Shown: positions 460-20,028 of the stretch, piece by piece | How the letters are laid out: the number at the start of each line of letters is the position of its first letter | Position numbering within the stretch: position 1 is the stretch's first letter | Virus record (IMG/VR): IMGVR_UViG_3300044251_000007 | Coordinates: 1-20,264 of that record | DNA: 20,264 nt | DNA from: a virus | Reading direction: 5' to 3' (one strand) | Program-made: the position numbers and the translations under genes | The notes under the pieces: generated by a model | Databases searched by the model: none | What the model was told of the DNA's origin: nothing | Seen by the model: only the letters and a program-made list of their open reading frames with translations

Positions 460-1680
460 GTGGCTAACACTTTCATCAAGCCGGAGAAGATCACGGCTGC
501 TGGCCTTGGTCTTCTCGAACGCGAGATTGTGCTCCCCGCACTCGTCTGGAAGAACGCTGGCGGATCGTTCGTCGGTGTTGCTGGTGACACGATCACCATG
601 CGCGTCCCGGCGCGTACCCAGTCCCGTAGCCGCACGCTGCGAGGCCAGCGGGGTCTTGCCTCTGAGGGCACCGGCATCATCCAGATGGACGAACTGACCG
701 AGACCAGTGTCGATGTGACACTGGACGAGGACATCTACTCGGCCATCCCGATCACGGATGAAGAGCTGACGCTGGACATCTCGGACTTCGGTTCGCAGAT
801 TCTCGGTCCGCAGGTGCGCGCGGTGGCAGAGGGCCTGGAGAACAAGCTGGCCGAGGAGATGACCTCCGCGACCTACGCACACTCGGTCTCCATCCCCGCT
901 GCTGATGGCGACCCGGCTGAGAACACCGGTGTCTACCAGGCGATGATCAAGGCCCGGCGGTACCTGAACGAGGCGAACATCCCGATGTCTGACCGCATTG
1001 TGGTCATGGGCACCGGCATGGAAGAGCGCTTCCTTGTCGACTCCCACCTGCACGAGGTAGACCGTTCGGGCTCTGAGTCGGCGCTGCGTGACGCGACCAT
1101 CGGTCGTATCGCGGGTTTCGGCACCGTCGTGGTATCCCAGGCCCTGCCGGCCGACGTCGGTTTCGCCTTCCACCGCACCGCCTACGTCCTGAACCTCCAG
1201 GCGCCGGTTGTCCCGAGTGGCGTGCCGTTCGGTGCTTCGCAGTCCTACCAGGGTCTGGCGATGCGCTGGCTGCGTGACTACGACTTCCGCAACGTCCAGG
1301 ACCGGTCACTGGTGGACCTGTACGCGGGGACCAACATCGTCGCTGACGGTGTTGTGTCCGAGGTCCAGACGGTTACCATCTCCGGCTCTCCGACGGGCGG
1401 CACCTTCGCTCTGACCGCTCGTGGTCGTACCGTCTCGGGTATCCCGTTCGACGCGTCGGCTTCGGCTGTTGAGGCTGCTCTGGCCTCGTTGCCTGGTGTG
1501 TTCGTCTCGGTGGCCAAGGCGTCCAACGTCTACACCGTGACGTTCAAGCAGTCCGGGCCGGTTGCCGCGATGACCGCCACCAGTGCCCTGACCGGTGGTT
1601 CCTCGCCGGCCGTGGCTATTGCGACCACGACCGAAGGGGCACCTACCTTCGTTCGCGCGGTCAAGCTGACCCTGGCGTAA
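460..1680 (+). CDS. Major capsid protein with C-terminal Ig-like domain
   Basis: A 406-residue protein starting at GTG 460, six bases after a strong GGAGG (449-453). Residues 1-300 look like the coat proteins of actinophages in the P22/HK97-fold group: an N-terminal segment with GLLEREIVLPALVW, then the T-x-R-x-P strand (TITMRVPAR), and a C-terminal core with MRWLRDYD. Residues 301-392 form an extra domain with the signature EVQTVTISG...GGTFALT...DASASAVEAAL...TGGSSPAVAIATTT. This is a beta-rich Ig-like module of the kind found on phage head and tail proteins, and it is shared with the major tail protein in this window. Such domains sit on the particle surface and often bind carbohydrate weakly. 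Placement between the scaffold and the connector genes supports the call. I cannot name the exact coat family with certainty. Confidence 0.93.
   Translation: MANTFIKPEKITAAGLGLLEREIVLPALVWKNAGGSFVGVAGDTITMRVPARTQSRSRTLRGQRGLASEGTGIIQMDELTETSVDVTLDEDIYSAIPITDEELTLDISDFGSQILGPQVRAVAEGLENKLAEEMTSATYAHSVSIPAADGDPAENTGVYQAMIKARRYLNEANIPMSDRIVVMGTGMEERFLVDSHLHEVDRSGSESALRDATIGRIAGFGTVVVSQALPADVGFAFHRTAYVLNLQAPVVPSGVPFGASQSYQGLAMRWLRDYDFRNVQDRSLVDLYAGTNIVADGVVSEVQTVTISGSPTGGTFALTARGRTVSGIPFDASASAVEAALASLPGVFVSVAKASNVYTVTFKQSGPVAAMTATSALTGGSSPAVAIATTTEGAPTFVRAVKLTLA
1360..1635 (+). other. Ig-like surface domain in capsid protein (residues 301-392)
   Basis: This segment encodes a compact Thr/Ala/Val-rich domain appended in frame to the coat protein. 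It aligns along its length with residues 182-286 of the major tail protein: EVQ[TS][VI]xI[ST]G at the start, GGTF[AT]LT, then [DN]ASA[SA]AV at the centre, and TGG[ST]SPAV followed by a TTT run at the end. The tail copy has a few extra residues in the middle. Confidence 0.8.
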
Positions 1681-16845: not shown

Positions 16846-17199
16846 GTGCAGAACCACGCGGCGTCCGTCTCGCTCTTCACACGAATCGTGAGGTCTGAAG
16901 TGAGTAAGACTGTGTTCGGTCTGGTCATCCTCGCGGCGATGGTCACTTCGGTTCTCTACGTCAACTCGGTCACCTCGTGCCAGACCAACTTCAACGTCGC
17001 CTACTCTGCGGTCACGAGGGAGCGGTCGGAGATTGCGGACCGGTGGCGCGACGAACAGATCGACTACCTGCACACCGTTCGGAACGAGAAGGACCCCGAC
17101 GTCCGTCTCGCGGCACTGGACAAGTACCTGGCCAGCCTTGAATTCGCCGCCGCGCAGCGGGACACCACTCCCCTTCCGGAGGAACCCCGATGCAGGTGA
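16846..17199 (+). CDS. Single-span membrane protein of the envelope cassette
   Basis: A protein of up to 117 residues. GTG 16846 follows the previous stop by two bases and has GTGAG just upstream. A second in-frame start, GTG 16900, has GTGAGG six bases before it and would give 99 residues beginning VSKTVFGLVIL. The membrane segment covers about residues 22-41 (TVFGLVILAAMVTSVLYVNS) and is followed by C45 and a helical, charged domain (about 48-104). A second cysteine is near the end (C116). The charged domain outside the membrane resembles the small partner proteins that accompany holins in actinophages. A lysis-associated role is possible, but no known motif supports it. Confidence 0.68.
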   Translation: MQNHAASVSLFTRIVRSEVSKTVFGLVILAAMVTSVLYVNSVTSCQTNFNVAYSAVTRERSEIADRWRDEQIDYLHTVRNEKDPDVRLAALDKYLASLEFAAAQRDTTPLPEEPRCR

Positions 17200-17981
17200 A
17201 GCCATTGCTCGACAAGATGGGCAAGAAGGTGCCGGCGACGGTTGCCGCTGGATTCGCCATCTTCGCCACCACGGTGATCCTGTCGACGACCTCGATCCAG
17301 ACGACCACCGAGAAGGACGTCGCGGTTGGTAACACCGCCTCGGTCGCGGGTCCACTCGTCAAGCTGTGCAACCGCGACGACGACACCGCGAAGCTGCTGC
17401 GCTCGGCTCGGACACCAGAGGGCAAGGGCCTGTGCGACACGGCGAACGCTGTACTGGCCCGGCCGACCGTGCAGGCAATCGCGCTGACCGATGACCGGGT
17501 GGTCTCGTTGGTCCGTCAGGAACTGGCACGGCAGCCCGCCCCGGCGAGTGTCGCACCTACGTTGTCGCAGGTCACGGATGCGGTCCGCGCGGTTATGACG
17601 ACGAACCCGGTACTCTTCAAGGGCGAGAAGGGCAACACTCCATCTTCGTCGGAGATCAGCTCGATCGTCACCGCGTACATCCGAGCCAACCCGGAGCAGT
17701 TTCGAGGGGAAGCCGGGAAGGACGCGGACACCGCAGGGATGGACGGACGGTTGGCCGCGCTTCAACGGGAGGTTGATCAACTGAAGAGCCGGGGCGCTAC
17801 CGACTCGGGTCGTGAACCCGATCGTGGCAACCCCGATCCCCGCACTCGGGATTCCTCACCCAGGGACCCGAGACCTCCAGTAACCCGAACCCGCCCGACA
17901 CCGACACGTACTGAAGGCCCACCCCCGGCGGAACAGTCACCGAGGGAATCTGGGCCGTCGGGGTCGATCGGAATCAACTGA
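17190..17981 (+). CDS. Anchored envelope protein with duplicated segment and disordered tail
   Basis: A 263-residue protein starting at ATG 17190, ten bases inside the preceding gene, with GGAGG about nine bases upstream. A membrane segment covers roughly residues 15-35 (PATVAAGFAIFATTVILSTT), so most of the chain is probably outside. The region contains C60 and C82. Residues 126-148 and 154-176 are two copies of a segment with the pattern S-x-[VI]-x-x-[AI]-V-x-A-x-[MI]-x-x-NP-x-x-F-[KR]-GE-x-G. Residues 187-199 look like a short coiled coil, and from about 202 to 260 the chain is rich in Pro, Arg, Ser, Asp and Thr and likely disordered, long enough to cross the cell wall. I do not recognise the family, though similar NP...G-rich membrane proteins are seen in actinophages. 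Confidence 0.75.
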   Translation: MQVKPLLDKMGKKVPATVAAGFAIFATTVILSTTSIQTTTEKDVAVGNTASVAGPLVKLCNRDDDTAKLLRSARTPEGKGLCDTANAVLARPTVQAIALTDDRVVSLVRQELARQPAPASVAPTLSQVTDAVRAVMTTNPVLFKGEKGNTPSSSEISSIVTAYIRANPEQFRGEAGKDADTAGMDGRLAALQREVDQLKSRGATDSGREPDRGNPDPRTRDSSPRDPRPPVTRTRPTPTRTEGPPPAEQSPRESGPSGSIGIN

Positions 17982-18013: not shown

Positions 18014-18976
18014 ATGTTCCGCAATCTCGCGGTTGCGGCGCTGGCCGTCCTGGCGCTGAGTAGCGTCGGGATCGGGACAGCGTCTGCGGCCGAACCACAC
18101 CGATGCCCCGACGGGAAGTTCACCAACTCCGTCGCCGAATGTGACACGTCCAAGACTTCTCGCACCGAGGTCAAGAAGGACGCGCCGCTCGTCAACGCTC
18201 CTCTGAACGTCCTCGGGGACCAGGAGAACAAGGACGTTCAGAAGCAGATCACGGAGTCGACCTCCCCGACCAAGCCGGCTGTTGCTGAGCGTCGTGGAAA
18301 CTTCGCGGCGTGCCAGCAGTGGCAGGACCGTGGACCCGGTGACAAGTGCGTCGACCGGACCCGGGGAAACCACTACGGCGGTCACTTCTACAACGACCGC
18401 TTCGAGGGTCGCTACCTGATCATCGACGGCTTCGCGCAGCGTAACGATGTGTGTGCCTACAACTCGTACAACGACTACGCCGGCCGCTACGGAACCTACC
18501 GTGGCCGGGTCGACGCGATGTTCGGCAACGGCAGCAAGTGGGACAGCATCCGCCGGGTGAACAACTGCTCGGTCTCCACTCAGGTTGTGGACAACGGTGA
18601 CTGCACCACCTACGTCACCAGCGCGAACAACTACGTCCGCTACCGTGACGACTGGAACCGCACCTCCCGTGACTACCGCAACCGTGGCATCAAGCTGTCG
18701 GTCGGTAGCCGCGAGCTGCTGAACCTCCAGACGATCCAGCGGGAGCGCGACCGGTGGAGGGGTGACTACGACCGCAACCGCAGCCGCGTGCTGTCCACTC
18801 ACACCACGTGCAACAACGCCCCGGTGGTCAACAACATCACCTACGAGGCACCGCCGGTCAACTACGTGACGCCGGCACCTGCCCCTGTCGCCGCTGCTCC
18901 GGCGCCGCTGAGCACGCAGCTTCAGACCGTGCCCAGTGGTTCGGCATCTACCGGTGACGGGTCGACCGAGAAGTAA
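18014..18976 (+). CDS. Secreted eight-cysteine protein, probable sortase substrate
   Basis: A 320-residue protein starting at ATG 18014 (AGGAAG upstream). Residues 1-25 are a signal peptide with charged start, hydrophobic core and AxA site (T-A-S-A | A-E-P). The mature part has eight cysteines (31, 43, 100, 112, 147, 185, 197, 266), an even number that fits four disulfides outside the cell. The central part is rich in Tyr, Asn, Arg and Asp (GGHFYNDRFEGRYLIIDG, YAGRYGTYRGRVDAMFG). Residues 275-300 are Pro/Ala-rich, a likely cell-wall-spanning spacer. The last residues contain VPSGSASTGDGS (306-317), a TG-type motif without a following membrane helix. The gene for a sortase starts at the base after its stop codon. 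I do not recognise a domain, and the link to the sortase is inference. Confidence 0.82.
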   Translation: MFRNLAVAALAVLALSSVGIGTASAAEPHRCPDGKFTNSVAECDTSKTSRTEVKKDAPLVNAPLNVLGDQENKDVQKQITESTSPTKPAVAERRGNFAACQQWQDRGPGDKCVDRTRGNHYGGHFYNDRFEGRYLIIDGFAQRNDVCAYNSYNDYAGRYGTYRGRVDAMFGNGSKWDSIRRVNNCSVSTQVVDNGDCTTYVTSANNYVRYRDDWNRTSRDYRNRGIKLSVGSRELLNLQTIQRERDRWRGDYDRNRSRVLSTHTTCNNAPVVNNITYEAPPVNYVTPAPAPVAAAPAPLSTQLQTVPSGSASTGDGSTEK

Positions 18977-19657
18977 ATGATCAAGGCACTGCTGGCTATC
19001 CTGTTGCTCGGGTCCGCGCTCGTCGGGTGTTCCCCGGCGACCGGGCAACAGGACCAGCTCCCCGGCTCCGCGCTGAACGACCCCGCAGACCCTCTCCGAC
19101 TTTCTGAACCCCGCGCCATCCGCATCCCTTCGATCAAGGTCGACTACACCGACGACTGGGCGCCACTCGGTATCCAGGGCGCACAGCGTTTCCCCAACTC
19201 GCAGGACAAGACGGTCGTCCCGGTCACCTCGGCGAAGGGTGAGATCGAGGTGCCGGCGTTGGACAAGCCGATGCAGCCTGGTTGGTTCTGCCCGACCGGA
19301 AGCCCTGTGTGTGGCGCTCCGACCCCCGGTGACCTCGGCCCCGCTGTCGTCCTCGCCCACATCAACGGCAAGGGCAAGCAGGGACTGTTCGCCAAGCTCG
19401 CCGACATCAAGAAGAAGGACACCGTAGAGATCGACCGCAGCGACGGGGAGACCGCGCGATTCGAGGTCTACGAGGTCCAGATTCTGAAGAAGAAGACGTT
19501 CCCCACCCAGAAGGTCTATGGCGACACCACGGGACCCGAACTCCGTTTGATCACCTGCGGACCGGGGAAGCTGGTGACACTCCCCGACGGAACCAGGAGC
19601 TACGAGAACCAGACGATCATCTACGCGAAGCTCCTGGAGATCAAACCCACCGTCTGA
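18977..19657 (+). CDS. Class F-like sortase (transpeptidase) with lipoprotein signal
   Basis: A 226-residue protein starting at ATG 18977, immediately after the stop codon of the preceding gene. Residues 1-18 are a hydrophobic signal with lipobox L15-V16-G17-C18, so the enzyme is probably lipid-anchored. Class F features follow: IRIPSIKVDY (39-57), the VVLAHINGKGKQGLFAKL segment with catalytic His128, FPTQKVYGD (175-183), the ELRLITCG segment with catalytic Cys194, and DGTRSYEN with a likely catalytic Arg207. Sortases cleave a C-terminal sorting motif of exported proteins, form a thioester at the cysteine, and transfer the product to an amino group, usually on peptidoglycan. All three residues are present, so the enzyme is probably active. 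Its adjacent partner at 18014 is the best substrate candidate. Confidence 0.93.
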   Translation: MIKALLAILLLGSALVGCSPATGQQDQLPGSALNDPADPLRLSEPRAIRIPSIKVDYTDDWAPLGIQGAQRFPNSQDKTVVPVTSAKGEIEVPALDKPMQPGWFCPTGSPVCGAPTPGDLGPAVVLAHINGKGKQGLFAKLADIKKKDTVEIDRSDGETARFEVYEVQILKKKTFPTQKVYGDTTGPELRLITCGPGKLVTLPDGTRSYENQTIIYAKLLEIKPTV

Positions 19658-19668
19658 CCGGAGGTTTC

Positions 19669-20028
19669 ATGTCTCGCAACCACAGTTGGTTCCGCGCGAC
19701 CATCGAACGCTTCTCAGGTCGGCTTGCTCGACGCCGGCACGAGGAGATCATGGAAAAGTTCTACGAGTTAGGAGTTCAGATGGCTGACGTTGATGCCGCA
19801 CTCGCCGATCTCAACGACGCAACCAATGAGGTTGCCGGGGAGCTCGACGACTTCGGTACTGAGGTAGCGGCGCTGAAGGATCAGATTGCCGCGCTCGACC
19901 CCGATGCCGCCGCCAAGCTGGAGCAGCTCGCTTCCGGTGTCACGGCTGCCGCATCTCGTCTCCGTGGCCTCGCGGCCGACCCGGAGCAGCCGGTACCGCC
20001 GGTTGAAGACGTTCCGGCAGGGGAGTAG
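19669..20028 (+). CDS. Coiled-coil protein with two possible starts
   Basis: A 119-residue protein from ATG 19669 with GGAGG five bases upstream. A second in-frame ATG at 19780 has its own TAGGAG six bases upstream and gives 82 residues beginning MADVDAALADL. The N-terminal 37 residues are basic and possibly amphipathic (RATIERFSGRLARRRHEE). The rest is a regular helix with leucine/valine/isoleucine every third or fourth residue (DLNDATNEVAGELDDFGTEV, LKDQIAAL, AAKLEQLASGV), so it is a coiled coil. The end is a proline/acidic tail (PEQPVPPVEDVP). Short coiled-coil proteins of this sort are widespread in actinophages and have no known function. Confidence 0.72.
   Translation: MSRNHSWFRATIERFSGRLARRRHEEIMEKFYELGVQMADVDAALADLNDATNEVAGELDDFGTEVAALKDQIAALDPDAAAKLEQLASGVTAAASRLRGLAADPEQPVPPVEDVPAGE

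Follow-up and report, generated by a model that had tools for sequence, protein, structure and literature searches.

The closest described counterpart of the locus analysed here is the AbpA/SrtB pair of oral streptococci (Firmicutes), a chromosomal pair in which the substrate gene lies directly before the gene of a dedicated class B sortase. The sorting signal of AbpA (LPKTSAVK) is short and C-terminal, without a hydrophobic domain or charged tail; KAGKALPKTSAVK at the very end of the protein directs its anchoring to the wall, and part of the protein is released (PMC4974636). The second comparison is with class F sortases of actinobacteria (Amycolatopsis, Saccharopolyspora, a Cryobacterium plasmid and others), which are chromosomal or plasmid-encoded, stand next to proteins with a C-terminal VPxGxxxTG motif and have no known physiological role (PMC13251363). 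In the classical LPxTG/SrtA and class E systems, a secreted substrate with a C-terminal TG motif is likewise processed by an enzyme with the sortase fold and catalytic His and Cys residues.

The locus described here belongs to a phage. It resembles AbpA/SrtB in the adjacent, apparently dedicated sortase and in the tail-less C-terminal motif, but the sortase has class F rather than class B as its best-matching profile, and the motif is VPxGxxxTG rather than LPKTS. It shares the sortase subfamily (by best-matching profile), the motif and the adjacency with the actinobacterial class F pairs, some of which are also tail-less, whereas about 26 of 44 in the sampled host set carry a transmembrane (TM) helix and Arg tail, and no collagen-like TM gene was found near the host pairs. 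From LPxTG/SrtA and class E systems it differs in the motif, the absence of a retention tail, the predicted lipoprotein anchor, and an Asn/Gln at the column that we align with the catalytic Arg. The enzyme family and the short-tail principle are thus known; what is new is their combination into a recurrent pair among the phage genes between the tail and lysis genes. The window, i.e. the whole stretch of DNA that was analysed, is a 20,264-base IMG/VR virus record (IMGVR_UViG_3300044251_000007) from a tailed actinophage, and the pair lies at the far end of its structural genes. The relevant features are the following (G002 and G030 are related viral contigs, G002 with a sortase and G030 without one):

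460..1680 (+), major capsid protein, which shows that the contig is a tailed phage (phrog_283, 5.5e-59; 47.7% identity to Streptomyces phage Attoomi)
16607..16843 (+), holin-like small membrane protein, flanking gene (73.6% to G002 and 42.6% to G030, which lacks the sortase pair)
16846..17199 (+), small protein with one TM segment, flanking gene (homologues in G002 and G030)
17190..17981 (+), TM coiled-coil/collagen-like protein, probable third member of the module
18014..18976 (+), secreted, Cys-rich protein of 320 aa, probable sortase substrate
18929..18973 (+), its C-terminal sorting motif VPSGSASTGDGSTEK, without TM helix or basic tail
18977..19657 (+), class F-like sortase of 226 aa, predicted lipoprotein (lipobox LVGC, Cys18), with His128 and Cys194
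19669..20028 (+), coiled-coil protein downstream of the sortase, with an architecture like that of the genes at this place in relatives (sequence match not significant)

The observation made in the preliminary description, a sortase gene starting at the base after the stop codon of a gene for a signal-peptide protein, is confirmed. The first open reading frame starts with ATG and encodes a protein with a signal peptide (MFRNLAVAALAVLALSSVGIGTASAAEP), eight cysteines, a Pro/Ala spacer and the terminus VPSGSASTGDGSTEK; the second starts with ATG directly after the TAA. The terminus is not an LPxTG-type pentapeptide: it contains SASTG within VPSGSASTG, so that TG is kept but LP does not directly precede it, and the protein ends 6 residues after TG, with no hydrophobic helix or basic tail. 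The preliminary description had noted neither the absence of this tail nor the lipobox of the sortase. The first protein matched no Pfam, PHROG or NCBIfam family, and its structural model (pLDDT 33) was of no use. Its homologue in G002 (29% identity by blastp, 34% in a MAFFT alignment) also lies directly before a sortase. Promoter and terminator scans were uninformative.

The second protein is a sortase by profile and predicted fold. It matched PF04203 with 57.1 bits (1.9e-15; cut-off 26.6) and, among the NCBIfam classes, class F best by far (NF033748, 7.7e-38, next 5e-05), although its 129.6 bits lie under the curated cut-off of 166. The AlphaFold (AF2) model (pLDDT 81) had sortases A, E and C as its best VIA matches (Z 15.5 to 7cfj and 15.0 to 9j0t), whereas sequence searches of the PDB gave only weak class A/C sortase matches. 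In an alignment of 110 relatives (30 viral and 80 bacterial), His128 and the TLxTC-type Cys194 are invariant. Arg207, which the preliminary description had named as part of the catalytic triad, is not supported in this role, as it is Arg in only 35 of 110; the near-invariant basic residues are Lys172 (110/110) and Arg190 (108/110). In a hand alignment, the column of SrtA Arg197 is Gln212 here and Asn in 103 of the 110 relatives, so the classical triad appears incomplete by sequence. A lipobox was detected by pattern in 21 of the 30 viral sortases; one further pattern hit, in viral sortase locus L064, looks spurious.

The occurrence of the pair elsewhere was then examined. Single-protein scans of IMG/VR with either protein returned nothing, but a scan with the capsid gave 40 related contigs. 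Five of these carry a sortase, four of them at the same place as in the window: tail genes, holin-like gene, TM coiled-coil/collagen-like gene, secreted protein, sortase, and then further late genes, with an endolysin in several. A second scan with the aligned sortases gave 29 viral loci, including those five, and thus 30 with the window. In nearly all of them, the gene directly before the sortase encodes a signal-peptide protein whose last residues are [V]PxG[G/A][V/A]xTG plus two to nine more. By a strict pattern, 24 of 30 upstream genes have the motif within 45 residues of the end; L061, L071, L072 and L080 carry variants or were missed by the automatic gene choice, which brings the number to 28 of 30. 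Only L066 and L068, two related loci, have a sortase whose upstream secreted protein lacks the motif, ending instead in LAYVLAHARVA. Among the other genes of these loci, about 7 of 499 match the strict pattern (10 of 502 counted, three of which are the substrate genes of duplicate loci; p about 1e-29, a guide only because the sequences are related). In sortase-less relatives, 7 of 678 genes match a looser pattern, none of them a convincing secreted protein of this kind. The genes mostly overlap at stop and start by 4 or 1 bases. The bodies of the upstream proteins are diverse, several having an Excalibur domain and that of the window no known domain, while the terminus is kept. Three viral substrates (L060, L063 and L064) have about 22–26 further residues after the motif, starting with GDGSC and ending rich in Arg/aromatic residues but without a hydrophobic helix, possibly a different retention tail. 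The adjacency in 28 of 30 loci runs clearly against the outcome that had been set beforehand as refuting the pairing, namely that homologues of the two genes never occur together.

The motif is identified by its host counterparts. Class F sortases of host bacteria and plasmids stand next to proteins with the same motif, often followed by a hydrophobic helix and an Arg tail (for example MPNGGVETGGG...RRRLAARG), the textbook layout of a sorting signal. In the 80 host loci sampled, the directly upstream protein is tail-less in about 18 and TM-tailed in about 26, whereas in phages the ratio is 28 to 1 (p 4e-7, without correction for relatedness); the one exception, L083, sits among bacterial sequences in the tree. 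Tail-less signals are thus not a phage invention but are almost the rule there.

The gene before the substrate (17190–17981) belongs to a profile family of N-terminally anchored coiled-coil/collagen-like proteins that was found just upstream of the substrate gene in 15 of 30 viral sortase loci and in none of the 80 host loci. G030 keeps the two genes before it (homologues of 16607 and 16846) and then runs straight into a coiled-coil gene, so the three genes probably come and go together. Judged by how far the contigs extend, about ten of the 40 capsid relatives reach this place and five have a sortase, so the module is accessory. The phage sortases form two phage-only groups of 10 and 7 sequences (SH-aLRT 91 and 88; that of the window is in the latter) and several singles among mostly Pseudonocardiales sequences, which suggests more than one acquisition but does not prove it. 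A tyrosine integrase was found in only 5 of 27 sortase-bearing records searched, one of them a fragment. Although this search did not cover serine integrases and the records may be incomplete, the rarity of tyrosine integrases and the position beside lysis genes speak against a mainly lysogenic role, and lysogenic conversion was rejected as the general one. A search of 299 genomes of the order of a Crossiella host with the capsid protein of the window gave three distant prophage-like hits.

Precedents among viruses were not found. INPHARED contained no close DNA relatives of the window, and tblastn of three class F sortases, the 18014 protein and the 17190 protein against it (50,697 cultured-phage records) gave no match, or only two insignificant endolysin hits for the 18014 protein; these queries did not cover other sortase classes. 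A fold search of the predicted viral structures in BFVD returned no sortase (best E 0.13), PHROGs had no family for either gene of the pair, and no paper describing such a pair was found in the library searched. This agrees with the statement in the preliminary description that phage-carried pairs of this kind are hardly described.

The interpretation given there, that the phage fixes its own protein to the host surface by means of a dedicated sortase, is partly supported: the dedicated enzyme-substrate pair is well supported, whereas attachment to the wall and roles such as blocking other phages remain conjecture. The explanation that we favor, with moderate confidence, is a surface-display pair. 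In this view, the 18014 protein is exported by its signal peptide, and the sortase, held in the membrane by a lipid on Cys18, recognizes VPxGxxxTG at the extreme C-terminus, cleaves (probably between T and G) through Cys194 and transfers the protein to an amine acceptor in the envelope, most likely a peptidoglycan precursor. Without a membrane-retaining tail, capture would have to happen during or just after export, which coupled translation and 1:1 production with the sortase would help, and part of the product could be released, as AbpA is. The analysis itself establishes the export signal, the predicted sortase fold, the conserved His and Cys, the conserved adjacency and tail-less motif, and the position between tail and lysis genes, while catalysis, the cleavage site, the acceptor, late timing and the purpose are inferred. 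The purpose, most likely a change of the infected cell's surface (bearing on superinfection, loss of progeny on debris, or lysis), is a guess. If this reading is correct, soil actinophages covalently remodel the surface of the cells they are about to lyse. The locus also points to a sorting signal that works without a membrane-retention tail, gives class F sortases a candidate motif, VPxG[AG][PVA]xTG, and yields small, self-contained pairs possibly useful for protein ligation.

Of the alternatives, all of which we consider unlikely, the one that survives best is that the acceptor is phage-made. The sortase would join the 18014 protein to the 17190 protein or to virions, giving a phage-built surface fibre or a decorated particle rather than a wall protein. 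The association of the 17190 family with the phage pair but not with host class F loci, and the position of the pair beside tail genes, agree with this. However, half of the phage loci lack a recognizable 17190 homologue, host class F pairs occur without it, and virions assemble in the cytoplasm, away from the exported enzyme. In its furthest form, which is not excluded but is similarly unlikely, a late-expressed, phage-specific three-gene envelope module (lipid-anchored class F sortase, tail-less secreted substrate and TM collagen-like stalk) would couple the substrate to the stalk or to released virions, and would be a covalent protein-ligation system serving the virus itself.

Slightly less likely is that the two are passenger host genes, picked up from Pseudonocardiales-like hosts and carried without a phage-specific role. 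The closest cellular relatives are host class F pairs, the tree needs several host/phage changes, and about half of the capsid relatives that reach this place lack the pair. However, its location at the same place in diverse phages, the two phage-only groups, the near-total restriction to tail-less substrates and the phage-only third gene are hard to square with mere carriage. That the genes are merely adjacent, the sortase acting on host wall proteins and the 18014 protein being freely secreted, is improbable: the lack of a tail holding the protein at the membrane and the two loci without the motif would fit, but the motif equals that of TM-tailed host proteins beside class F sortases and is concentrated in the upstream genes (24/30 against about 7/499).

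Two further features were observed. In Amycolatopsis chromosomes (host loci L099, L106, L107, L111, L112, L122, L123, L128, L133, L137 and L146), a tail-less VPSGAAKAGDGSMAG protein, a TM-tailed VPxGAPQTGG protein and a class F sortase are encoded in tandem, an apparent three-gene host surface system. In the window, the capsid protein seems to carry an extra C-terminal domain (residues ∼295–386), probably Ig-like, that matches the ends of major tail proteins and tail sheaths, and the same split is seen in relatives.
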